Of a DNA stretch of 64,000 nt, positions 8,660-21,212 are shown one piece after another. Position 1 is the stretch's first letter. Every line of letters starts with the position of its first letter. The notes beneath the pieces are model-generated. The model had not been told where the DNA came from, did no database searches, and saw only the letters and a program-made list of their open reading frames with translations. Origin of the DNA: Ruminiclostridium papyrosolvens DSM 2782 (GTDB taxonomy: Bacteria > Bacillota > Clostridia > Acetivibrionales > DSM-1351); the NCBI RefSeq assembly GCF_029318685.1, contig NZ_CP119677.1, positions 1,488,001 to 1,552,000 of the forward strand. The letters are read 5' to 3'. The translations under genes and the position numbers were made by a program.

Positions 8660-9889
8660 CTATTTTATAGTTCGGGGACTATAAATGTGTATTTGCCCAA
8701 GACCGTGAGGATATAGTTTTTGTCCCTCAGTCGAAGCATTAACGTCTTTAACAATTGAAGCAGGAATATGGTCAGACAGTCTGGGACCGCAGCTTGCATC
8801 AAAACTGAAAGTCTTTAACTGTGAGTGACAGCTGTCTCCGTTTTGTGCATCGCCCTCAATAACATATTCTCCGTCGCAATTAAAAAGTATACCGCCTTGT
8901 TTTGTTGCAGCCGAATCCTTTCTCAAAGACATTCCACAGGATATTACTATTTGTATATCCAATTCCTTTATCTTTTTCTCGGATAAATATCCAAGGAGTC
9001 TTTTTCTGCTATGGTCAAGACAAATTTCAACGCCTATATTCAAGCCTCCGCAGTTAAAAGTAGAGTAGGTTATTGTCTGTACAGGATTATTTGTATCAGA
9101 GACAGGAGGGTAATTAACCATTGTTTGCAGATAATTTTCAACAATGCCTTTTGAAGCCGATGGGTTGTTTAAAATAAAATCTTCTTTTGACTTGAATTGC
9201 TTTTGTATGGAATTGGTATTCTGTCTGTAATAAATAAAACATCTGTTATAAACCATTTTGTTGGCTAAACCGTCACTCATACTCAATACATCCTTAAGTA
9301 AGTCTGAAAGTTCCTGGTCATAATTGTTTTCTGATGCCACTTTTTTATCTATGATTTTCAGCAAGTGAGAGACATTGGGTATACTTTTATTCTTTGCGGA
9401 TTTTTTTAGTATACTGTATACGCTTAAATAATCATCACCAACTTTTGAAAGGGTTTTGTCAGTATCAGTTATACAGTCGGGGATATCGAAGGTAGTCAAA
9501 ATTGAGCCGAATAAGAAAAGCCAATCACTGAAGTCATATTGTTTTTCAAGGGTTTTAATAATATTAATCAGGCCATCACTGATTTTTTTGTACATTTCAT
9601 CGTTTGCTTTTTGGGAATTCATATATGCACCCTTAATCCCTCTCCAGAAGAATTCAGGCAATGCAAATACTTTCAGAGTAGAAGGGTCTTTGTTGATTCC
9701 ACCAATGCTAATTACCTGCTTTAGCACATCTGATACGATTTGCAGACGAGCATTGATGTCATCGCTATCATTCGCAAGGCCAAGATAGATTCCCCAATCG
9801 CTCATTTCTTCAACGGATTCCTTTAACAGTGGGGTGGAGCTTAACACATGGCCAATAAATTGTACATTGGAATACATACTTTCATTCAT
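8660..9889 (-). CDS. Divergent carbon-nitrogen hydrolase (nitrilase)-like protein
   Basis: A 409-residue cytoplasmic protein with no close relative recognised. Two motifs point to the nitrilase fold: FALPEFFWRG (candidate catalytic Glu 79) and NIGVEICLDHSRK (candidate nucleophile Cys 290), the latter matching the GxxICxDxxxP-like signature of the superfamily. A Lys-rich stretch around residues 230-235 could supply the third catalytic residue. A long insert between Glu and Cys makes the protein larger than typical members of about 270-310 residues. The start ATG at 9889 has AGGAGAG at proper spacing; an upstream in-frame start at 9952 has none. Substrate unknown; single gene. Confidence 0.6.
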   Translation of the reverse strand: MNESMYSNVQFIGHVLSSTPLLKESVEEMSDWGIYLGLANDSDDINARLQIVSDVLKQVISIGGINKDPSTLKVFALPEFFWRGIKGAYMNSQKANDEMYKKISDGLINIIKTLEKQYDFSDWLFLFGSILTTFDIPDCITDTDKTLSKVGDDYLSVYSILKKSAKNKSIPNVSHLLKIIDKKVASENNYDQELSDLLKDVLSMSDGLANKMVYNRCFIYYRQNTNSIQKQFKSKEDFILNNPSASKGIVENYLQTMVNYPPVSDTNNPVQTITYSTFNCGGLNIGVEICLDHSRKRLLGYLSEKKIKELDIQIVISCGMSLRKDSAATKQGGILFNCDGEYVIEGDAQNGDSCHSQLKTFSFDASCGPRLSDHIPASIVKDVNASTEGQKLYPHGLGQIHIYSPRTIK

Positions 9890-10071
9890 AGTAATCTCTC
9901 CTGTGTAGTTGTTTTTATTTGAAATAATATACCATATGCCAAAATGTGTCAATTTTTAATTTAAATTACTTTTTTTACAGAATGATAGTGTTATGATTCA
10001 ACAAATAGGTGTTTTTGGTGATTACATTATTGCACCTTGAAGCCATAATTTACTTGAAATAGAAAATAGTT

Positions 10072-10099: not shown

Positions 10100-10156
10100 A
10101 AAGCTAGCATTTATATATCATAGAAATGTTTCTGACAAACTTTTATGGAGGGTTTT

Positions 10157-11158
10157 ATGAAAATTAAATTTACAGCTTTTTTACTAGTTTTATCACTAAT
10201 AATTTGTTCATGTTCATTTCTGACAAGTGCAACAGACAAAAGTCAAAATAATCAAGTTAGTATTAAACAAGCAGATGGTGTATTATTAGCTAATGGATTT
10301 GATGAAAAATCAATTGCAGAACTAAATTTTGAAGTTAAAATCCGTCTTGCTTCAACATTAATTAATAGCCCAAGTAAAGTTAAATTAACTCACTCAAAAG
10401 TGCAAATTAATGAAGCTGCAATAATTCGAGATTTTCAAAATATGAAAGATGAAAATTTGAAATCTAAATATGGTGTTTCTGATGATACTGTAAAAAAAAT
10501 TCATAATGATATAAAGAAACTTAATGAAAAAACAGATGACCAAATAAAACAAGAATATCAAAAAACTGATAATGAAGTACAAAATATTAGAAAAGTACTA
10601 AATAATAATGAAATGGAATTATCTTCATTAACTTTACAAAGTATTAGCAATATAAATTATCATATGTGGGTTTATGATGATTCAGGAATACTTCATCCTG
10701 TTGAATACTCAGTAAATGCTGAGTTTACATGGGATAGTCAACCATTATTATCTTGGAATTATAGTGACTATGTCGCTTTTGCATGGGCAGGTGACTTAGC
10801 AACGGACTTTACTGATGCACAACAATACAATACTGTGCACTATGTTTACGGAATACAGCACCTTCATAAGAATATTCTGCCAGTTGAAAATCCTGTAAAT
10901 GAAGGGCTCTCTTTTGGATTCAAGCAGTCTATACCATTTAATCAATATGCTTCATATTATCCAAGTTCAGGATTTTTTTGCTTTTCATTATATCAAACAT
11001 CAAAAAATAATCCTGCCAAAACAGGAAAGATAGTGTCACAATATGGTCATCAACATATTGCATTTTCGGGAATGGGATTTTCTCTAAAATCGGCATCAGT
11101 ATCTTTTGGTTCAGCATTCGATACATCTGATCAAGAAACCTTTGGCATTCGATACTAA
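10157..11158 (+). CDS. Predicted lipoprotein of unknown function
   Basis: A 333-residue exported protein. The N-terminus has a short basic start (MKIKF), a hydrophobic core and a lipobox-like LIICSC, so lipidation at Cys 19 or 21 and attachment to the outer membrane face is likely. Residues about 90-160 are charged and probably helical (DEN-, KKIHNDIKKLNEK-rich). The C-terminal half is aromatic-rich (YHMWVYDDSG, LSWNYSDYVAFAWAG, GHQHIAFSGMGFS), suggesting a beta-rich globular domain. The start at 10157 is set by GGAGGG at 10147-10152. The DNA is clearly more AT-rich than its neighbours, which suggests transfer. Family not recognised. Confidence 0.7.
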   Translation: MKIKFTAFLLVLSLIICSCSFLTSATDKSQNNQVSIKQADGVLLANGFDEKSIAELNFEVKIRLASTLINSPSKVKLTHSKVQINEAAIIRDFQNMKDENLKSKYGVSDDTVKKIHNDIKKLNEKTDDQIKQEYQKTDNEVQNIRKVLNNNEMELSSLTLQSISNINYHMWVYDDSGILHPVEYSVNAEFTWDSQPLLSWNYSDYVAFAWAGDLATDFTDAQQYNTVHYVYGIQHLHKNILPVENPVNEGLSFGFKQSIPFNQYASYYPSSGFFCFSLYQTSKNNPAKTGKIVSQYGHQHIAFSGMGFSLKSASVSFGSAFDTSDQETFGIRY

Positions 11159-11176
11159 TAAAGTATGAAAAAGATT

Positions 11177-11228
11177 AAGGGAGAGCTCTTTTACTAGATA
11201 TTTGGTTTCTTTGAAGAAGCTCTCTCTT
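11177..11228 (+). terminator. Terminator after the lipoprotein gene
   Basis: AAGGGAGAGCT pairs with AGCTCTCTCTT (11 bp, including one G-U pair), followed by TAATTT. It lies 19 bases after the stop codon. Confidence 0.65.
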
Positions 11229-11277
11229 TAATTTGAAATAATGCTAAATACAACATAAACATTTGTGGAGGCTTTAT

Positions 11278-11883
11278 TTGAGAAGAAATATTAATGGAAT
11301 TATAATCAGTTTAGCAATTTTATTGTTAATGTTTTATATTTTTATATCGATGGGTTTTAGATTTACTGAAAAATCGGCGATAAAAGCTATTTTTCCTGGT
11401 GATTTAGTCATCAAATCTGAATTGAATAATAATAATAAAGAGATTTATTTACTTTGTGATAACATTAAAACAGAGCTTTTTTATGATATTATTTTAGAAA
11501 GAAAATTTTTTGGGCTATTATATAAATACAAAAGTTCTAATTCTTATAATAAATCTTATGATGAGCCTTTTGTAATGACCGGATCAATAGATTATAAACA
11601 TAAGCGAGGATATTTTGGGTTTAAAATTAATAATGTCAATATAAAATATATATCTATAGGTGTCGATGATTTACAACGTAATATGATTAGTAAAGAAAAC
11701 TTGACTTTAAATTATATTAAGTCGAAGCCGGAACGTTTTAAATACTCACATATTAATTCAAATAAATATGTTACTTTTGTATATGATAATTATGTTCAAA
11801 AAAATTTTGTAATAAGAGCTTTTAATTCTACAGGTAAATTATATATTGAAAAGTACCTAGACAGTAAGATAATGTACTTTTAA
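11278..11883 (+). CDS. Single-pass membrane protein of unknown function
   Basis: A 201-residue protein with one N-terminal transmembrane segment (residues about 6-25, after RRN) and an extracytoplasmic domain rich in Asn, Lys, Ile and Tyr. No family was recognised. The TTG at 11278 is chosen because GGAGG at 11267-11271 lies six bases upstream; the in-frame TTG at 11263 overlaps the Shine-Dalgarno sequence. Like the preceding lipoprotein gene it is markedly AT-rich, and the two may have arrived together. Confidence 0.6.
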   Translation: MRRNINGIIISLAILLLMFYIFISMGFRFTEKSAIKAIFPGDLVIKSELNNNNKEIYLLCDNIKTELFYDIILERKFFGLLYKYKSSNSYNKSYDEPFVMTGSIDYKHKRGYFGFKINNVNIKYISIGVDDLQRNMISKENLTLNYIKSKPERFKYSHINSNKYVTFVYDNYVQKNFVIRAFNSTGKLYIEKYLDSKIMYF

Positions 11884-11945: not shown

Positions 11946-12028
<83 letters not shown>

Positions 12029-12226
12029 ACGAGCAGTTTTTATTATAAAGACATTTGATGGTTTTGTCAACAAAATATTAAATAAATATTTATATTAAGT
12101 CATATTGACTGACAAAAATTTAACTAAGTTACATTTATTAAAAAAAATTGAAATACATGGTACATAAATCTATTTAATTAATATATAATTAGTCTAAATA
12201 ATATTTATCGATGGGAGGTAATGCAA

Positions 12227-12592
12227 ATGACTAACGGTTTTTGGGATGGTGATGATTACGAAGACCATGACCTTCAAAGTGACACTGATTATGACACAGA
12301 TGATATAGAGGATGAAGATTCAGAAGATGATGACACTGAAGATTACGATGATGACGACAGAGATTACGGCGAACATGATGAAGATAAGGAAGAGGATGCC
12401 GAAGATAATGACATGGAAGAGAATTCAGACGTGCATTCTAATCAAAGCATAATAAAACAGAAATCTTCACATAGTCCAAGTTTCCACGGATATGGAAAAT
12501 GTATGCGTTATCTTTGCAACTGTCAACATTTTGAGAGCATATCCGGTAATACTTGCAGTAATTGCGGACATAACTACAGTGACCACTGGTAA
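12227..12592 (+). CDS. Highly acidic protein with C-terminal zinc-binding motif
   Basis: A 121-residue protein of unknown function. Residues about 5-70 are almost wholly Asp, Glu, Asn and Tyr (a disordered polyanion). The last 35 residues carry a Cys/His cluster: KCMRYLCNCQHF then NTCSNCGHNYSDHW, a likely zinc ribbon. The start at 12227 is preferred because GGGAGG at 12213-12218 is too close to the ATG at 12221. It is the first of four co-directional genes with a dynamin-like GTPase. An acidic tail plus zinc ribbon suggests an adaptor or inhibitor role; that is inference. Confidence 0.7.
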   Translation: MTNGFWDGDDYEDHDLQSDTDYDTDDIEDEDSEDDDTEDYDDDDRDYGEHDEDKEEDAEDNDMEENSDVHSNQSIIKQKSSHSPSFHGYGKCMRYLCNCQHFESISGNTCSNCGHNYSDHW

Positions 12593-12635
12593 TTGTAATG
12601 AAATTAAGAAACTTAATATACGAGGGGGGTAAAAT

Positions 12636-14036
12636 ATGGCGTTTGGAGTAGACGATATAATTGTGCTGGTTGTATCAAGACTGGTAACCAGAGCAATTTC
12701 CTCCGTAGCACAAAAGTCATACGACTTTTTTACAGGTAAGGAGCAAAAGGATATACAGAAGAAAAAGGACGAAGCAGCCATTAGCTTTGAGAACAAAAGC
12801 AAGATACAGCTCATTGATCATCAGTTCAGGCTAACGGAAGCAAGAACGCAATTTGAAATGCGCATGGAGGAGTGGAAGCAAAAAACCTTTTATTCCAACT
12901 GCTGGCCTTTAAGAGAACCTTTTGACATGCGCTTTGCCCTTAACACGCCTTTTGAAGGTTGCAGTATTGACGGTAAAGAAGTTATTCCATGCAGGATAAT
13001 CACGTCATTAAAAGATAAAGACCATCCTATTGCAAGAAATATAAACGGAAATCTGTCTTCATTTCTTATAACACATTATAATAGCGTAAGTTCTCACCCT
13101 GTTATATCAGATATAGGAAGTTGGAGAGAGGATGCACCTTCTAATGATGCCTCAATAAATTATCTGTTTTCAGGGCTTCAAGGTCAGCCGGTTCTGGTTT
13201 TTTCACCGGAATTTGTTAATGACGGACAAACAATAATTCTTAAAATATGGTCATGGGGGTTGGGCGAAAAAGTAAATCTCCCTGTGGGAATTGAGTTTGG
13301 CAGTATTAATATAAAGCCCATGTATCTGAATGCTTTATATGAAGAAACTAAAAAGAGTATGGAGCTTATACAGGAGTTGGGAATAAAACCAGAGGGATTT
13401 TATTCTGAAAAACTAATTAATAACATAAAGATTATTAAAATGCTTGAAAAGCTTAGTGAAGAGGATGAGGATAAAAAGGAAATGATTCAGCATCTGTATT
13501 CACAATTATCAGAAACCGATGAAATAAGAGATGTTGTGAAAGAGAAGATATCTAAGCAGGTATCAGGTATATTTTCCTGTTGTGCAGGGATGTATGCCGA
13601 CGCATATCATCTGGTGGAGTATGGAACTGTCCCAAAACTTCCTTTGCTGGTGGGAAGTATACCGGGAGCGAATATGATACGACGTTCCATAGCAGATTTT
13701 TACATATCGTTGCTTTCGGAAATTGAGCAAATCGAAAATTACAGCAAATTATTGCCTGCCATTTATGCAGATACGGCAAATGCGCTAGCCAATATGGGTG
13801 CAACTTACGAGGAAGTTAACAATTACGTAAAGCCTTTGTTGAGCCGTGGGATAAATCTGGTTACATATGGTGATTGCAGTAACTTGTCAAAGTCAAAAAT
13901 CCAAAATATCAGCAGCCTTGATGAGAGCCTTGATAAACTCTTGAGGGACAATGCAGCAAGTTTGGACAAAAGCCTTTTGGATAAGATAAATTCGGTACTA
14001 AAGTCTATACACCACCCGGCCTATCCTATACAGTGA
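12636..14036 (+). CDS. Unknown protein encoded beside dynamin-like GTPase
   Basis: A 466-residue protein with no recognised family. The N-terminal 25 residues are amphipathic to hydrophobic (IIVLVVSRLVTRAISSVA) and could associate with membrane. Residues about 35-85 are charged and probably coiled-coil. A mixed middle region (about 90-235) includes PVLVFSPEFVNDGQ. A helical C-terminal half holds the Cys pair FSCCAGMYADAYHLVEYG and a hydrophobic PLLVGSIPGANM stretch. ATG follows CGAGGGGGGT. It lies 44 bases after the acidic zinc-ribbon gene and 39 bases before the GTPase gene, so an operon is likely. It may be a membrane-proximal partner of the GTPase. Confidence 0.7.
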   Translation: MAFGVDDIIVLVVSRLVTRAISSVAQKSYDFFTGKEQKDIQKKKDEAAISFENKSKIQLIDHQFRLTEARTQFEMRMEEWKQKTFYSNCWPLREPFDMRFALNTPFEGCSIDGKEVIPCRIITSLKDKDHPIARNINGNLSSFLITHYNSVSSHPVISDIGSWREDAPSNDASINYLFSGLQGQPVLVFSPEFVNDGQTIILKIWSWGLGEKVNLPVGIEFGSINIKPMYLNALYEETKKSMELIQELGIKPEGFYSEKLINNIKIIKMLEKLSEEDEDKKEMIQHLYSQLSETDEIRDVVKEKISKQVSGIFSCCAGMYADAYHLVEYGTVPKLPLLVGSIPGANMIRRSIADFYISLLSEIEQIENYSKLLPAIYADTANALANMGATYEEVNNYVKPLLSRGINLVTYGDCSNLSKSKIQNISSLDESLDKLLRDNAASLDKSLLDKINSVLKSIHHPAYPIQ

Positions 14037-14075
14037 CTTGTATAAGATTTGGAAAAGAGATAAGGAGGAGCGTTA

Positions 14076-16694
14076 ATGTACAACAGTGATAAGTTAAAGG
14101 CAACCCAGAAACTCCTGGAGGATTTGGGCAACGGGATGATAGCCCTTTTTAATGAATACAAGGAAGATTTTTTAGGAGATGAGCTGGTTACTTCACAATT
14201 CAAAAGTTTTTTTGAAGAACACAAACGTGCAATGGAAAGGATAAAAAATCCCGTGCTTTCTATTGCTACAATCGGGACTACTTCGTCGGGAAAATCAACA
14301 CTTACAAATGCATTGGCAGGAAAAATGGTAGCTCCCATAGATTCCGGTGAAAAAAGTGCCGGAATTCTGGTTTTGAGAAATTCTAATAAACGGTCTCTTT
14401 ACATAGAAAAAACTAAAAATTCTAAGTGGAAGACAGGCCAGATTAAGCAGGATATTTCAGACGAGGAAACATATAACATTAACAGTGATACAATGAAAAC
14501 ATATTTTGATAACAGAAAGAACTCTGCTCCTCCGAGGATTTACTCAAAAGGGCCTTTGCTTATAGGTTCATCGCCTGAAATGCTTAACCTTCCCGAGGAT
14601 ATATGTGTTGAACTTGTAGACCTTCCGGGACTGAAAAACAGCGGAGACAAGGAAAATCTGAGCGTTATACAGGAGATGCTGACAAGGTCTCTGTGCCTTG
14701 TGGCTATGGACTATAGCCACACAGATGATGAAAACCGCAAAAAGCTTCTGGGAGAACTGAAGGATATAGTGAATTTTCTGGGAGGCAGACAAGATTCCAT
14801 AATTTTTTTGCTTAACAGAGTAGATTTGAGAAATGAGACAGATGTAGAACTTGATTTAAATATATCTAACCTCAAAAAAGAGATTAAAGAAGTACTAGCT
14901 TTGAAAAACGAGCCTGAGATAATACCCTTTACCGCACTGCCCCTTTTCTATGCACAGTGTGCCTGGGGGCCTGTTTCACATAAAGATAAAAACAAGGAGC
15001 CTCAATATCCCAATGATGCTCTGAAATATAACTACAAATGGTTTCTCAAAAGCCTGATGAAGGATTGCTATGATATATATGACAGCAATGCAAATAATGC
15101 TGAACTTGAAAAGTGGCTTTCCGATTTGAGGATTAATGTAAAACACGGTGAAGATTTAAGTGAAGAGGATTTAAGAAAGCTTTTAGACTATACTTACCAA
15201 TGCAGTAACGGCAATCTTCTGTTTAAGAGAATACAGGAGAGGCTTAACAACAGTTTTTCCCAGTTAATTATAATGCCTGCAATATGCGAATTATTCAAAA
15301 TATTCTGTGCACTACACAGTACCTTGAAAACCCTTGGGAGTATCAGAGTTACAAAATCAAAGCTGAGACTTGTAAATTATTATCTTGGTACCGTAAGACT
15401 TAAAAACGAGCTTATAGGCTGTGATAGTGAAGAAGCAGCCAATAGTATTAAAAGGGACTTGAACTCAATATCAGATGAACTGTCAGGGTACGAAAGTAAG
15501 GATATACCTGAGGAGGAGAGAAAAAGAATTGAAAAAGTCAAGTCTGAGGTTTTGTCCTTAAAGGGGGAAATAGAAATATCACCCGGGAGAATAGGTGAAA
15601 AAAAGCAGGAATTTCAGGAAAATCTTCAGGAAATAACAAGGAAGATTAACGAGGGAAAAGGAACATATGATGCAGAACAGTTTGTTAATGACCATGAAGA
15701 AATATTTGGAAGCATTGAGGATTTTTCAAATATGTTTGACTCAGTTGCACACCTCACGGATGAGCTAAGGTTGGGAATAATAGAAATTATAGGGGATTCA
15801 ATTATAAATAATGATACATACGACGAAGTAATGGAAAAAATGGATTTTCTTCCTGTTGAAGTGTCCTCCCGACTTGCAAGGGCATATGATTATGTCAGCA
15901 GAATTATGCTTGGCGGACTGAGGGACAAGGAGGTAGCTAACAATCACTTTGTTATAAAATCCGTAAATAAAACCGAAGAAATTCAGAAGTATATGGAGCG
16001 TTATGATTTTTTAGACGTGGCAATGAACAGGGCGCTTTCTGCAAGAGCGGGGCTGCTTCTCCAATCGTATTCAAATGAGTTGGTGCTTCCTCTAAGAAAT
16101 ATGATTCAGGGACATATAGACGAAATCGCAGAAATATGCCGAAGAAAGCTGGGGATTATCGACCTTGAATTAACTGAAACAATTGAGAATATTCTTCAAG
16201 CTGTGGATATTAACGAACTGTCTTTGCCAGACGGAGTTTTTGAGTTTGCTTCAAAACCTCCCGAGGAAGATATCAGTATAGGTAAAAAAACAGAATGGAA
16301 GACACGGGTAAAGCAAGGTTCATTTTGTGGAAGCGACACCACGGAAACCTATTTGGATTTTGTCGACGTAATGGGGAATGCATATTATTTTCCTAATGGT
16401 GTAGCCTTGAAACAAAAATGGGACTATGGCTTAACCAATGCTAAAGAATTGTTCTGGAAGTATATGTTTGAATGGATGGCTCAACAGCTGAACAGTTACT
16501 CTGATGCATTTTCAGTTTCAATAAATACTCTTATAACTACAGTAAACGCAACGATAAAATCGAAAATAACCATGAGTGAGCAAAAGCATGAAGAGGAAGT
16601 GGGCAGGTGGAATAAAATTTTACTTCAGGCCAATAATGCAGCTGCGGTATCAAATGGTATTAAGGACGTTGCTGTTGACGGGAACGGAGTTTGA
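14076..16694 (+). CDS. Dynamin-like large GTPase
   Basis: An 872-residue protein with a dynamin-family GTPase domain near the N-terminus: G1 GTTSSGKS (67-74), G3 DLPG (182-185) and G4 NRVD (247-250), preceded by a helical segment. The long remainder is mainly helical with a strong coiled-coil region (about 470-530) and matches the neck/trunk layout of bacterial dynamin-like proteins. No transmembrane paddle as in cyanobacterial BDLP is obvious, and there is no fused second GTPase as in Bacillus DynA. Such proteins remodel or protect membranes; some act in phage defence. ATG follows AAGGAGGAG. Neighbouring unknown genes probably encode partners. Confidence 0.85.
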   Translation: MYNSDKLKATQKLLEDLGNGMIALFNEYKEDFLGDELVTSQFKSFFEEHKRAMERIKNPVLSIATIGTTSSGKSTLTNALAGKMVAPIDSGEKSAGILVLRNSNKRSLYIEKTKNSKWKTGQIKQDISDEETYNINSDTMKTYFDNRKNSAPPRIYSKGPLLIGSSPEMLNLPEDICVELVDLPGLKNSGDKENLSVIQEMLTRSLCLVAMDYSHTDDENRKKLLGELKDIVNFLGGRQDSIIFLLNRVDLRNETDVELDLNISNLKKEIKEVLALKNEPEIIPFTALPLFYAQCAWGPVSHKDKNKEPQYPNDALKYNYKWFLKSLMKDCYDIYDSNANNAELEKWLSDLRINVKHGEDLSEEDLRKLLDYTYQCSNGNLLFKRIQERLNNSFSQLIIMPAICELFKIFCALHSTLKTLGSIRVTKSKLRLVNYYLGTVRLKNELIGCDSEEAANSIKRDLNSISDELSGYESKDIPEEERKRIEKVKSEVLSLKGEIEISPGRIGEKKQEFQENLQEITRKINEGKGTYDAEQFVNDHEEIFGSIEDFSNMFDSVAHLTDELRLGIIEIIGDSIINNDTYDEVMEKMDFLPVEVSSRLARAYDYVSRIMLGGLRDKEVANNHFVIKSVNKTEEIQKYMERYDFLDVAMNRALSARAGLLLQSYSNELVLPLRNMIQGHIDEIAEICRRKLGIIDLELTETIENILQAVDINELSLPDGVFEFASKPPEEDISIGKKTEWKTRVKQGSFCGSDTTETYLDFVDVMGNAYYFPNGVALKQKWDYGLTNAKELFWKYMFEWMAQQLNSYSDAFSVSINTLITTVNATIKSKITMSEQKHEEEVGRWNKILLQANNAAAVSNGIKDVAVDGNGV

Positions 16695-16695
16695 G

Positions 16696-17484
16696 ATGAA
16701 AGTAGGCGATAATATTAAAGCTTGGAAAAAAGATTTTGAGACAAAATGGGATTCTTGTGAAAAACAAAAAGACCCGTTAAAATGTGCCGTAAAAATATTA
16801 TCAAGTATTATTCTCTCTGAAACCGCAACAGATAAGGACAATGGAAAAGTAATAGATGCATGCACAGATTACTTCTCTGAATCGTTTGAGCCTTTATATA
16901 TAAATGAAAACAAGAAAAAAGGAGGATTAAGAATGAAGGGTCTTTTTATAGCAGGTCTGGCGATAGTAGGTATATCCATGATTTTTATTTACCAAAGAAA
17001 ATATAACAATGACCAGAAGAAAAATCCCCCGGAAATAGAAAGAAATGAAAAAATAGAGAAAGTTGATAATGTTTATAAACCATCCCATACACCGAATCAA
17101 AATGTATTGATACTGGTACTTAGAGCAGGTAATGAAAGTTGTTTGAATACCTTGAAAGAGAACATGCGGCTTTCAGCTGAAGTTTATGATGAGCTGTACA
17201 AGGCAACCAGATACTTATGGGTAGGAAATGCTAATCAATTTAATAACTCAAAGATAATAAATTGGTTTGACGAAAGTAACAACCAGACACAAGCAAGTAG
17301 TTTGGATGTATATCTGATTAAATTAGCATTAGAAAAAAACTACAGTGGTTTGTTGCAGTCGGCAGACGGACAGGCCAGATTGAGTGCATTTAAACAGCTG
17401 TGTCAGGATGGAGCAAAGATTGAGGAGTTTTCTCCAAGAGTTTCAAATGCTGCCTATGGTACTACCGAGGTATATGAAAAATAG
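16696..17484 (+). CDS. Membrane protein of unknown function, GTPase-linked
   Basis: A 262-residue protein whose start lies one base after the GTPase stop, so translation is probably coupled (GGAACGGAG upstream). Residues 1-78 are soluble and charged; one transmembrane helix follows (about 82-101, LFIAGLAIVGISMIFIY), then a basic/acidic linker and a soluble helical C-terminal domain of about 150 residues. A strong internal Shine-Dalgarno, AAAGGAGG, and ATG at 16933 would give a 183-residue form beginning at the transmembrane helix. No family recognised. The larger open frame from 16576 overlaps the GTPase and is rejected. Confidence 0.7.
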   Translation: MKVGDNIKAWKKDFETKWDSCEKQKDPLKCAVKILSSIILSETATDKDNGKVIDACTDYFSESFEPLYINENKKKGGLRMKGLFIAGLAIVGISMIFIYQRKYNNDQKKNPPEIERNEKIEKVDNVYKPSHTPNQNVLILVLRAGNESCLNTLKENMRLSAEVYDELYKATRYLWVGNANQFNNSKIINWFDESNNQTQASSLDVYLIKLALEKNYSGLLQSADGQARLSAFKQLCQDGAKIEEFSPRVSNAAYGTTEVYEK

Positions 17485-17492
17485 GGACTTGG

Positions 17493-17526
17493 TGGAGGGT
17501 GTATTATTTTATGCTTACATCCTCCA
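17493..17526 (+). terminator. Terminator of the dynamin-like gene cluster
   Basis: TGGAGGGTGTA pairs with TACATCCTCCA (11 bp, one G-U pair), followed after seven bases by a run of T. The right arm overlaps the end of the convergent MFS gene. Confidence 0.7.
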
Positions 17527-18687
17527 TACTCTCATTTTTTTCAAAAAATACAGAGCTATGATTTGTGCACAGCCTATAAACAGCAAAAAATAGTTAAGGC
17601 TTCGGTCATATTTTACAAACCACAGCAAACCTATGAGTATCAGCAGACTTACTACTCTGCCCATATTTAGAATAATCTCTTTATTGATAATATATTCAAG
17701 CCGCAAATCCTCCTGATGCTGAAGACTTATAATGTTGAAGCCGGCAGAAGAAAAAGGAACCATAAAAAAGGGCAGAAATGCAGAGTCCATTATTATAAAT
17801 AACAGCAGAGTTCCGTAACTGATATTGACAACCAATCCCCATACTGCCAAAAACATTAAACCGGCCCCTGCCAGCATTGACTTTAACCTTGATTTTGGCT
17901 TAACCAGCTTTTGCTCAATCACAAAAGCTACCGATGAAATAAGTGAGCCAATAAGTGAAAAAGTACCCACAGACCATTCACTGCCTGTAGTTTTAAAAAC
18001 CAGTACAAATATTAGGAAACCTATAATAACATCTCTAAAGCCCCACGTGAACAGGCCCTTTCTTAAAAAGCTCCAATCGTGAGAGTTTGTACCGATTATC
18101 TTTTTAAAGTCCATCTTCCTTCCGTAATATTCTGCTTTTAATAAAAAGGATACCAATATCAGTACTACGAATAGCAGTAATGAGATAGAAAAGACAATAG
18201 TGTAGCCCATTCCCAGGACATTTTTATTAATTATATAGGCAGAAGATATTGGTGCAACAGCACCGCAGATTCCTGCAATAGAACCATTGTAACCATTAAA
18301 GGTATCCCTGTTTTCAGTTGATGTAAAATCAAAACTCAGAACATGAAATGCAAGCCAATAAAAACCTGCGGCTACCCCGAATAATATTCCAAATATCAGT
18401 ACAAAATTTGAAATTTTGTCTTGAAATAGAAGAATAAGCCCGAATAAGATAATGAAAAAAAGTATTCCCAACCTTAGTGACCAGATACCATTTTTTCTTT
18501 TGGAAAGCCATCCGGCAAAAATGAAGGTGATGGGGAGGAACATATACTGCATGAGATTATATTCTGCTAAAACTATAAAGTTTTTTGATTCTTTCCACAA
18601 TAAGATATTAAGAAAAACATTTGAAATGCCCATTGCAAGTGTGAAAAGGGCACTTACGGTTAACAACAGCTTAGCCTTTTTCGACAT
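17515..18687 (-). CDS. Major facilitator superfamily transporter
   Basis: A 390-residue inner-membrane protein with about 11-12 hydrophobic segments. It has an MFS-like loop after the second helix ([10 protein letters not shown], in the place of motif A) and resembles the YqgE-like group of uncharacterised Firmicute MFS proteins. The substrate cannot be inferred from sequence. ATG follows GGGAGG. It is convergent with the dynamin-like cluster and separated from the upstream TM2 gene by a terminator, so it is probably independently transcribed. Confidence 0.82.
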
Positions 18688-18832: not shown

Positions 18833-19288
18833 TTATTGAAATCTTACACGATGTTTTACTTGGAAATTATGGTCATTGGAACACAAATAAACAATACCTT
18901 CGATAAAAGCAATAAAACTTGGAATAAAGGTCCAGCAGAACAACATATAAAGTATACCTTTACCTATTTTGCCCATGTAAAACTTGTGAATTCCAAGTCC
19001 ACCTAAAAATATTGCCAAAAGTCCGGCAACAATTTTGTTTTTTATTGGCCAGGAAGGATCTATGCCATTATTTATATTCTGCTGCTGAGCATATTGCTGT
19101 TGTGCAACACGCTGTTGGTATAGCAGTGCCTCGGCTGCTTGGGGGTCAAACTCCTGCTGTTTAGGAACAGGTCTCTGAGCAGCTGATGGAGCAGAATTTT
19201 GTACGGTCAAAGCTTCACCGCAATATTTACATTCTCTATCACTAAGAGCAGTTGGTGCCCCGCATTGAGGACATTCATTTTGAGCCAT
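18833..19288 (-). CDS. Zinc-ribbon and TM2-domain membrane protein
   Basis: A 151-residue protein with an N-terminal zinc ribbon (CPQCGAP and CKYCGEAL), a Gln/Ala-rich linker (residues about 45-75) and a C-terminal TM2 domain of two helices (KIVAGLLAIFLGGLGIHKFY, then a second helix). The linker looks disordered. TM2 proteins have no settled function, but often sit beside stress or membrane-quality genes. It lies 77 bases downstream of an SPFH/zinc-ribbon gene on the same strand with a shared terminator, so the pair is probably an operon. Confidence 0.85.
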   Translation of the reverse strand: MAQNECPQCGAPTALSDRECKYCGEALTVQNSAPSAAQRPVPKQQEFDPQAAEALLYQQRVAQQQYAQQQNINNGIDPSWPIKNKIVAGLLAIFLGGLGIHKFYMGKIGKGILYMLFCWTFIPSFIAFIEGIVYLCSNDHNFQVKHRVRFQ

Positions 19289-19365
19289 TTTTATACCATC
19301 CTATCTTATTTATTTAATTATACTTTTAAAAAAAATGATATATTACAAAAATTTGATCACACTAA

Positions 19366-20496
19366 TCACAGTTTTTTACCGCATTGTGGGCAAAATTTAG
19401 TGCCTATTGGGATTTCTGTACCGCATTCACAGATCCTGCTTCCCATAGGAGTTCCACATTCAGGACAGAATTTGGGATTGCCGGTTACTAATGCTCCACA
19501 GGAAATACATTTCTTCTTTGGAGTTTCCAACGGCTTTCCACATTCACAGCAAAATTTTGATTTTGCTGAATTTTCAGCACTACAGGAGGGACATGCTAAG
19601 GTTGCAGCATCTGTGGCTGCTTTTGTATTAATGGTGTTATGCATGTCGGAACCCAGAGATGCACCTATTCCAAAACCAACACCTCCTGAAGCAAACACAC
19701 CTGCTACACCTGAATTATTGCCGGCAGCTTGGTCATATACATCAAAAGAACGTTTTGTTACATAACGGTTGTCTCCCATAATTTCGAATTCAGCCTTGCT
19801 TTTTAGAATCTTGTTAATTTCTTCAAAGTCTTCATCGGGGAAATTAATGGATTTTATAATTAAGTTGATTGCAATTAATCCATATTTGGAAAATTCAGGA
19901 GAAATCATTTCAAGGGTGTAATTTGCAATATCATCCAGTCTGGCAGTAATCTCCAATGCAGATATTTTTTGATTTACAATTACATTGGCGATTATGCTTT
20001 TTATCTTCTGAATCAAGATTCCTTTGAAGAAATCTATGACATTGTCAAATTTAATAAAGTCCGCCGGATTCATTACTCCAATCAGTTCACGAAAAAAGGT
20101 TTCATAGTTATCAAGTTTTAAGCCCATCTGGCCAAAAGCACGAACTCTGAGTCTGGTATAATATTTTGGGTCAATTATTTGTACCGGATCAGATGTTCCC
20201 CAGTTGATATCTAGTTTCGTAGTAGTGTTGATATAGAAAATTTCTGCACTGAAAGGGGTTTTTCCTCCAAAAGGCAGATTAACAAAGGCTTTAAGTATTG
20301 GAAGATTTTTAGCATCAAGAGTATAAGTTCCAGGAGAAAATAAATCACAAATCTCTCCGCCTTTAACAAAAACTGCAATTTGTCCTTCACCTACAATAAG
20401 CTGTGTTCCATATACAAGATCTTCGGCCGGATGTTTATAAACAATCCAATCACGGGATCTAAGCCCGTCAAATTTTACTCTATCAATGATAGCCAT
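19366..20496 (-). CDS. SPFH-domain protein with three C-terminal zinc ribbons
   Basis: A 376-residue protein. Residues about 20-245 form an SPFH/band-7-like domain of the YdjI (virion-core-protein-like) type, starting MAIIDRVKFDG and WIVYKHP. A Gly/Ala-rich link follows, then three zinc ribbons: CPSC/CCEC, CISC/CPEC and CEC/CPQC. In Bacillus, YdjI acts with PspA-type proteins in envelope stress. No transmembrane segment is evident, so binding to membrane would be peripheral. ATG at 20496 is chosen because AGGTGAT lies seven bases upstream and the family begins MAIID; GTG 20508 and ATG 20505 overlap the Shine-Dalgarno. Confidence 0.88.
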   Translation of the reverse strand: MAIIDRVKFDGLRSRDWIVYKHPAEDLVYGTQLIVGEGQIAVFVKGGEICDLFSPGTYTLDAKNLPILKAFVNLPFGGKTPFSAEIFYINTTTKLDINWGTSDPVQIIDPKYYTRLRVRAFGQMGLKLDNYETFFRELIGVMNPADFIKFDNVIDFFKGILIQKIKSIIANVIVNQKISALEITARLDDIANYTLEMISPEFSKYGLIAINLIIKSINFPDEDFEEINKILKSKAEFEIMGDNRYVTKRSFDVYDQAAGNNSGVAGVFASGGVGFGIGASLGSDMHNTINTKAATDAATLACPSCSAENSAKSKFCCECGKPLETPKKKCISCGALVTGNPKFCPECGTPMGSRICECGTEIPIGTKFCPQCGKKL

Positions 20497-20528
20497 TTTG
20501 GACATCACCTCACAAAATATTAGTCTTA

Positions 20529-20557
20529 ATTATAGCATAATATACCATACAAATCAA
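20529..20557 (-). promoter_or_regulatory. Promoter of the SPFH gene
   Basis: On the minus strand, TTGATT (20557-20552) and TATAAT (20534-20529) are 17 bp apart, about 30 bases before the start codon. A good housekeeping-type match. Confidence 0.6.
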
Positions 20558-20570
20558 ACCCTTGAGGCTG

Positions 20571-21212
20571 TTAATCTGCAGGGTATACTTCAAATTCATT
20601 CTTGTCAAAATCAAGTATGTTTTATTGTTTCATTTTTGATAATTCTCTTGATAAAGCACTTCGGTTTACACACAAAAAGTCTGCAAGTTCGTCACGTGAA
20701 AAAGGAATCCTGAATCTGTTTTTCCCTGTTCTCTGCACCTGCATATAGAAATAGGCCATGAGCTTTTCACGGGTCGACCTCTGAGAGAGAATCTCTATTT
20801 TGCTATTTAGAAAAATATTTTTTTGTGCAATAAGTGAAAGCATGTTTTCAATAAGCTTGGTGTGAAAGCTGCAGGAGGAGGAACAGGTGGTAACAATCCT
20901 GCTAAAGCCGATATACATTACGGTGCAACCGGTAGTAGTGAGAACTGTTACCGGGCTTTTCGCTAACTTTGCACATGAAAAAGCCTCTCCGAACATGTCT
21001 GCCGTACCGATTTCATATACTATATTTCTGTTGCCCATTATATCTTCTTTAACAATCTGGGCAGAACCGGATAAAATTATACCTACAGAGGATACCTTAT
21101 CTCCTGCCAACAGCAGTATATCATTTTTAGTATAAACCTGTTCATAGGATTCAAGGCATTTTAACATATGAAGAATACTTTCATCGCTTATATTTTGAAA
21201 AATTGCAACTTG
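20571..21212 (-). pseudogene. Crp/Fnr-family regulator remnant (HcpR-like), truncated and with in-frame stop
   Basis: The longest intact piece (ATG 21167 to TAA 20622) encodes 181 residues of a cyclic-nucleotide-binding-like sensor domain, including the TTCSSSCSFHTKLI stretch of regulators found beside hcp genes, and the helix-turn-helix RDELADFLCVNRSALSREL. Two defects are visible. After the TAA at 20624-20622 the frame continues as NILDFDKNEFEVYPAD, which matches the expected family C-terminus, so the TAA looks like a nonsense change. Upstream of ATG 21167 the frame reads VAIFQNISDESILH, also family-like, then meets a stop at 21215-21213 without a start codon. Probably non-functional or impaired. 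Confidence 0.72.

Follow-up and report, generated by a model that had tools for sequence, protein, structure and literature searches.

A dynamin-like GTPase and a single-pass membrane protein as the candidate core of a dispensable four-gene operon in Ruminiclostridium

Introduction

Bacterial dynamins are described as acting mostly in pairs of dynamins (PMC6104087). A locus of Ruminiclostridium papyrosolvens DSM 2782 raises the question of how a lone dynamin-like GTPase, encoded among genes of no recognised family, might find a membrane and what it might do there. The locus lies in a 64,000-nucleotide stretch (G000:C1:1488001-1552000; hereafter, the window) of a genome of 5,027,861 bases in a single contig, and comprises four open reading frames (ORFs), G1 to G4, all on the + strand at 12227-17484, as defined from an ORF list and the sequence (Table 1). 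An earlier, sequence-only reading of the window had proposed that the four genes form one membrane-remodelling or defence module under no known name. We find that the operon is real and falls within the bacterial dynamin systems, and that, judged by sequence comparison, the GTPase G3 and the membrane protein G4 are its conserved core, with the remaining genes differing between two lineages. Genomes are labelled G000 (the window genome), G006 (R. papyrosolvens C7), and G007, G002 and so on (relatives); fetched loci are labelled L0xx.

Results

G3 is a dynamin-like GTPase with three partners of no recognised family

G3 has a G domain scoring over the curated cut-off for the dynamin superfamily and, as the sequence-only reading had stated, intact GTPase motifs G1, G3 and G4 (motif names, distinct from the gene names used here). 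The match to Pfam Dynamin_N (3.6e-13, 50.3 bits, cut-off 27) is confined to a single stretch, and GTTSSGKST (residues 67-75), DLPG (182-185) and NRVD (247-250; the G4 motif) are invariant in four of four aligned homologues. The best hydrophobic segment of G3, starting at residue 397, has a mean Kyte-Doolittle value of 1.71 and is not strongly hydrophobic. G4, by comparison, has one strongly hydrophobic 19-residue segment, from residue 80 (mean 2.18), which bears out its description as a single-pass membrane protein encoded one base after the GTPase.

The other two proteins are less readily assigned. G1 contains 41 acidic and 6 basic residues among its 121, and ends in the pattern CxC...CxxCGH...DHW, in agreement with the earlier description of an acidic, zinc-ribbon protein; the last 39 residues are 100% identical in G006 and 97% identical in G007, and the acidic part drifts. 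For G2, the best hydrophobic segment starts at residue 7-8 with a mean of only 1.58: the membrane-seeking N-terminus that had been proposed is possible as a membrane-seeking helix, but a transmembrane helix is unclear. That the three partners are unrecognised holds throughout: G1, G2 and G4 have no match above the curated Pfam or NCBIfam cut-offs, and none better than 0.005 in PADLOC, which shows no cut-off. A PADLOC match of G2 to PDC-M11A (best 0.0013, in two of three orthologues) was rejected as too weak, and a match of G4 to a de novo coiled coil in the PDB (0.0076) was judged meaningless.

Homologues of G3 and G4 are adjacent on a Nostoc plasmid

Distant relatives were sought in plasmid records, cyanobacterial genomes lying outside the searches. 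Among 72,556 plasmid records, a tblastn search with G3 picked out a single one, NZ_CP040300.1, a conjugative plasmid from Nostoc sp. TCL26-01; it encodes a dynamin of 837 amino acids (aa) with 30% identity to G3 over residues 6-858 (342 bits). The gene right after it encodes a 282-aa protein that matches G4 with 27% identity over 195 columns (52.8 bits, 1e-12 in a single comparison); the best of 2,000 shuffles of this protein scored 25.0 bits with G4. When 1,779 stop-to-stop ORFs from 52 loci (which overlap) were scanned with a profile built from the three Ruminiclostridium G4 sequences, only the orthologues and the Nostoc protein (1.3e-13) matched. The Nostoc G4 homologue has one hydrophobic segment (2.08) at the same place and conserves the YLW-G and SPR motifs; the best segment of the Nostoc G3 homologue (1.20, at 391) lies in the same region as in G3. 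Adjacency of the pair is thus seen in a distant lineage, at one locus. Because these homologues are adjacent on the Nostoc plasmid, G3 and G4 are well supported as an ancient pair conserved across phyla.

In Nostoc the pair sits within a defence island carried by a mobile plasmid. A third gene, 14 bases on, encodes a 429-aa protein that matches JukB over residues 8-125, its N-terminal third (1.1e-13); about 0.5 kb past it lie genes matching HmaC (1.8e-97), DUF7680 and HmaB (6.4e-73), and an ArdA antirestriction gene lies upstream. The operon contains no second dynamin, and G1 and G2 were not found among the annotated genes around the Nostoc dynamin. The third Nostoc protein has no similarity to G2 (BLASTP 2.8; profile-comparison probability 0.1%). 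Conserved co-occurrence of all four genes, which the sequence-only reading had set against conservation of the GTPase alone, breaks down beyond Ruminiclostridium, since the one distant full-length G3 homologue found is accompanied by G4 and not by G1 or G2; what stands is a two-gene core.

The JukB-like protein has relatives of its own, encoded at L045 7962-9131 and L046 7962-8921 (5e-9 and 4e-4) and surrounded by helicase, methylase or restriction genes on a Chlorohelix and a Pseudomonas luteola plasmid, and a match in an unannotated phage record (5e-6).

In Ruminiclostridium the four genes are kept, and lost, together

The genes are separated by 43, 39 and 1 bases, each preceded by a purine-rich stretch resembling a ribosome-binding site on inspection of the sequence. 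The closely spaced, co-directional arrangement claimed for them is therefore borne out, with one correction: of the spacings 44, 39 and 1 given earlier, the first measures 43. Chance ORFs can be ruled out, because all four frames are uninterrupted in three species with ratios of nonsynonymous to synonymous substitution rates (dN/dS) between 0.07 and 0.36. Pairwise values among G000, G007 and G006 are 0.07-0.08 for G3, 0.11-0.14 for G2, 0.13-0.28 for G4 and about 0.30-0.36 for G1 (approximate, the G006 copy of G1 having been taken one codon early), and 0.05-0.15 for four flanking genes in the same genomes. Selection keeps all four genes, and G1 and G4 evolve fastest.

We compared the locus in six of the ten other genomes of the genus; in the remaining four, the downstream SPFH gene has at most a relative of 35% identity. 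In G006 and G007 the complete set is present, ordered as in the window and bordered by the same tRNA-Leu and MFS genes. G002 (4,068,724 bases) has none of them, and its tRNA-Leu and MFS genes lie about 130 bases apart. The G002 junction contains a stretch that agrees with the end of G4 at 27 of 31 bases and keeps the reading frame of the final G4 residues. Elsewhere in the 18,001-base locus, with both strands considered, the agreement reaches 19 of 31 at best, and no other 30-base piece of the block from upstream of 17400 matches the G002 interval at more than 20 of 30. Because the junction retains the last G4 codons, the ancestor most likely had the block and G002 lost it in a single step, and G1-G4 most likely constitute one dispensable unit. 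The four genes are also absent from G001, G008 and G010, which are uninformative on gain or loss because of a different gene arrangement downstream: more than 5 kb separates MFS from TM2 in G001 and G010, and the MFS gene was not found in the stretch fetched from G008. Synonymous divergence (dS) is 0.26-0.82 for the block and 0.16-0.57 for the flanks, which places the block within the range of its flanks or a little above it. We rejected a recent gain of the block, since dS equals that of the flanks and G002 keeps a G4 remnant. The same gene order in all three holders, together with block-wise absence in a fourth genome with a G4 scar, supports one operon-like unit, as the operon claim had it.

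The complete block was found in three genomes

Strong G3 matches occur in 3 of the 11 genomes of the genus, and the same three account for those among 58 genomes of the order and 391 sampled in the class. The class sample adds a fourth, weak match in G778 (6.6e-11, residues 21-114), and two phylum samples yielded the window genome and otherwise weak matches of G-domain type alone (3 of 398 and 2 of 368 genomes in all). Three strong and two weak matches were found for G2 (291 genomes), and likewise for G4 (391 genomes); the G1 tail is matched in 3 of the 58 genomes of the order, the other 55 having no match at E<=0.01. The larger scans scored about 2-6 candidates per genome, hence absence there is not proof. 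The strong holders of G1, G2, G3 and G4 are identical every time (G000, G006 and G007), and a scan of genome contigs returned solely R. papyrosolvens C7. Weak isolated matches aside, G1 and G2 were found in these three Ruminiclostridium genomes alone, always beside G3 and G4.

Several weaker candidates were set aside. The weak G2 matches in G445 and G674 (8.7e-4 and 3.7e-4; with a profile, 9.1e-5 and 2.4e-5) cover different parts of G2 and were ascribed to chance, as were matches of the G1 tail in seven phage records at 0.7-0.8; loci L043 and L044, which hold the weak G2 matches, contain no G3 or G4 match, and the G1 tail has no match among plasmids. Other dynamins of the phylum, in G013 (two, 26-29% identity over the G domain), G369 (1.6e-6) and G778, were assigned to other lineages because loci L040-L042 contain no G2 or G4 profile match. 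L040 9815-16850 (G778) is a different clostridial cluster, whose consecutive genes are three dynamin- or GTPase-like ones and a coiled-coil-like one, and L041 12612-17000 (G013) has two adjacent dynamin-like genes (frames of 726 and 717 aa) in the usual paired arrangement.

The operon differs from each known dynamin or defence system examined

The operon matches no named system in Pfam, NCBIfam or PADLOC, and no description of it was found in the literature searched, subscription journals being mostly outside that search. Eleos (LeoA/LeoBC) likewise comprises a dynamin-like GTPase in an accessory operon, with weak to moderate profile similarity: in PADLOC, G3 matches LeoBC at 4.3e-5 and LeoA at 0.0041, and the Nostoc homologue matches LeoA at 8.2e-12 and LeoBC at 2.9e-6. 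However, Eleos has two dynamins, LeoA and LeoBC, compared with one per operon here and in Nostoc; G3 scores 15.2 bits against the NCBIfam LeoA-family model NF041922 (cut-off 325); and we know of no G4-, G2- or G1-like partner in Eleos. We rejected assignment to Eleos on the number of dynamins and the LeoA score.

The only relevant solved structure for G3 by sequence is BDLP1 of Nostoc punctiforme (PDB 2j68), which shares the G domain (0.0059 with the single sequence; 2.6e-4 with a four-sequence profile, positions 42-255) and gives no sequence match to G3 outside it. The membrane paddle of BDLP1 is part of the protein itself, whereas G3 has no strongly hydrophobic segment.

DynA of Bacillus subtilis is, like G3, a Firmicute dynamin acting at the membrane, and it delays lysis of phage-infected cells, with phage protection shown (PMC8844932). 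DynA, however, consists of two fused dynamins; G3 was excluded from this family by its single Dynamin_N stretch and a score of 19.9 bits against NF052648 (cut-off 1600). In Campylobacter, too, a dynamin acts together with a protein encoded in its own operon, as the pair DLP1/DLP2 (PMC6104087), but there both partners are dynamins.

The Juk (jumbo phage killer) system (JukA/JukB) is connected to the locus through the third Nostoc gene. JukB is recruited by a sensor and forms pores on a phage vesicle, and Juk systems have diverse effectors (PMC13282480). Juk as described has no dynamin, and G2 has no JukB match: PADLOC found no JukB match in G1-G4, nor did the JukB model in G000 (a search without positive control), and PADLOC, BLASTP and the profile comparison with the third Nostoc protein were all negative for a JukB-like G2. 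The sensor JukA has no match among G1-G4 or the Nostoc proteins P0005-P0007.

Discussion

We tentatively favour, as the best single reading, a single-dynamin membrane-defence module with G3-G4 as its core, in which G4 would anchor the GTPase in trans and a third component would be exchangeable. Anchoring in trans is suggested by the lack of a strongly hydrophobic segment in G3 and the presence of one in both G4 and its Nostoc homologue; by analogy with JukB and DynA, we propose that the GTPase and its anchor form a core, joined by an exchangeable third component that acts on membranes. The dispensable four-gene operon would thus be built on two proteins, G3 held at the membrane by the bitopic G4, working with G2 in Ruminiclostridium and with the JukB-like, probably pore-forming protein in Nostoc, and perhaps regulated by the small acidic zinc-ribbon protein G1, for which the sequence-only reading had suggested a possible role as inhibitor or adaptor. 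Perturbation of the membrane, most likely by an infecting phage, would be the trigger: GTP-loaded G3 would assemble on membrane marked by G4 and either stabilise or remodel the site or deliver the third protein there, with the result that phage release or replication fails. We infer the defence function and the mechanism, including contact between the proteins, anchoring in trans, and roles of G2 as effector and G1 as regulator, from one distant locus, and it is solely the surroundings of the Nostoc genes that suggest defence. A bolder form of the idea, which we consider possible though somewhat unlikely, is a new family of immune modules in which a dynamin docked by a single-pass partner drives an exchangeable membrane effector, namely the orphan G2 in clostridia and a pore former resembling JukB in cyanobacteria; such modules would be a bacterial counterpart in logic of the dynamin-related antiviral GTPases that recruit factors to membranes.

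Several observations weigh against a defence module. The Nostoc context is a single case, and G1 and G2 have no counterpart there. Within the three species, the similarity of block and flank dS indicates vertical inheritance and no recent move. No recognised defence gene was found among the nine flanking window proteins scanned, except an HD-domain protein with a weak match to Cas10 models (1.3e-4), and no relative of the G3-G4 pair was found in the viral contigs or phage records scanned. A Gloeothece plasmid protein weakly matches part of the G4 family (3e-7, residues 2-125 of the Nostoc homologue) without a dynamin, and G663 and G700, which are not among the genomes with a G3 match in the class sample, weakly match the N-terminal part of G4 (2.2e-5 to 2.1e-4); we set these three aside as chance matches, though they count here. 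Finally, other dynamins have repair and vesicle roles (PMC6104087, PMC4159319).

The last point leads to the strongest alternative, which is possible though somewhat unlikely: that the operon serves membrane maintenance and not phage defence, with the GTPase patching or fusing damaged membrane under envelope stress, G4 as its receptor, and G1 and G2 as accessories. Such functions have been put forward for DynA, whose general role is membrane surveillance and fusion (PMC8844932), and for the Campylobacter pair, for which membrane repair is speculated (PMC6104087), and they accord with vertical inheritance at one chromosomal site and a lack of defence neighbours in the window. They fit poorly with an operon that is dispensable and patchy, present in 3 of 11 genus genomes and deleted as a block in G002, and with a distant relative that sits in a defence island on a conjugative plasmid beside a JukB-like gene.

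It is improbable that G3 and G4 by themselves form the system, with G1 and G2 as neighbours that share the transcript and have other roles. The Nostoc locus, which lacks G1 and G2 and whose third protein shows no relationship to G2, would be explained directly; but the 43- and 39-base gaps, the constant order in G000, G006 and G007, the joint loss, and the conservation of G2, almost as strong as that of the GTPase, all speak for four genes acting together in Ruminiclostridium. A role in vesicle release, secretion or a developmental membrane process such as sporulation is quite unlikely: vesicle release by LeoA/LeoB mutants is roughly halved (PMC4159319), but no secretion or sporulation gene was recognised within the block or among the scanned proteins flanking it, and the distant relative is carried by a cyanobacterial plasmid. 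Least likely of all, by a little, is an Eleos member in which one dynamin was lost or diverged, since the PADLOC matches, stronger for the Nostoc protein, are offset by the lack of a second dynamin beside either GTPase, the score far under the LeoA-family cut-off, and a non-GTPase partner conserved across phyla.

Of the original proposal of one unnamed membrane-remodelling or defence module, the operon, its lack of a name, and the G3-G4 pair across phyla all hold; conservation of all four genes beyond Ruminiclostridium does not. If a single dynamin is indeed linked across phyla to a membrane protein that is not a dynamin, this would represent a different way for a dynamin to find its membrane, and the pair would offer a small, testable system. 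If the third gene is really a swappable effector, dynamins would be linked to pore-forming immunity, and the G3-G4 pair would serve as a search handle for more such systems.

Other features of the locus

Table 1. Positions of the four genes and bordering features in the window.
Feature	Position	Strand	Description
G1	12227..12592	+	121-aa acidic protein with conserved C-terminal zinc-ribbon-like tail (~39 residues)
G2	12636..14036	+	466 aa, without a known family; N-terminus of moderate hydrophobicity; the third component in Ruminiclostridium
G3	14076..16694	+	872-aa dynamin-like GTPase, G1, G3 and G4 motifs intact
G4	16696..17484	+	262-aa single-pass membrane protein, conserved C-terminal domain; homologue 3' of the GTPase in Nostoc too
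Probable terminator hairpin, common to operon and convergent MFS gene	17492..17527 (approximate limits)	+	From a fold of 17480-17555
Region upstream of operon	12075..12226	+	Alignable by eye across the three block-holding genomes; no promoter identified
tRNA-Leu gene bordering block	11946..12028	-	Recombinase-bearing insert at tRNA 3' end in G007

The shared terminator proposed earlier is plausible and not proven. The sequence at 17480-17555 folds strongly (-21.3 kcal/mol, z -3.66, none of 200 shuffles as good) into a hairpin with a 12-base loop, which is followed a few bases later by a T-run and shares sequence with the 3' end of the MFS gene that converges on the operon; but a scan for consensus terminators lists none on the + strand just after G4.

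The tRNA-Leu gene is an integration site in the genus, as seen also at L037 6476-7948 and in L051. G007 carries a serine recombinase gene that terminates within the 3' end of tRNA-Leu, and about 42 kb lie between its tRNA and the upstream gene found close by elsewhere. In the window, 10145-11883 holds two genes of low GC content, one encoding 337 aa with a lipoprotein-like start and the other 206 aa, with no Pfam match above cut-off and no match in the stretches fetched from G002, G006 and G007. The gene at 8660-9952 encodes a 430-aa protein without a Pfam match that is present in G006 and G007 and was not found in the G002 stretch, and is thus also variable and tRNA-adjacent. Downstream, at 18833-21167, TM2/zinc-ribbon, SPFH/zinc-ribbon and CRP-like genes stand in a row and are kept in the six genus genomes compared.

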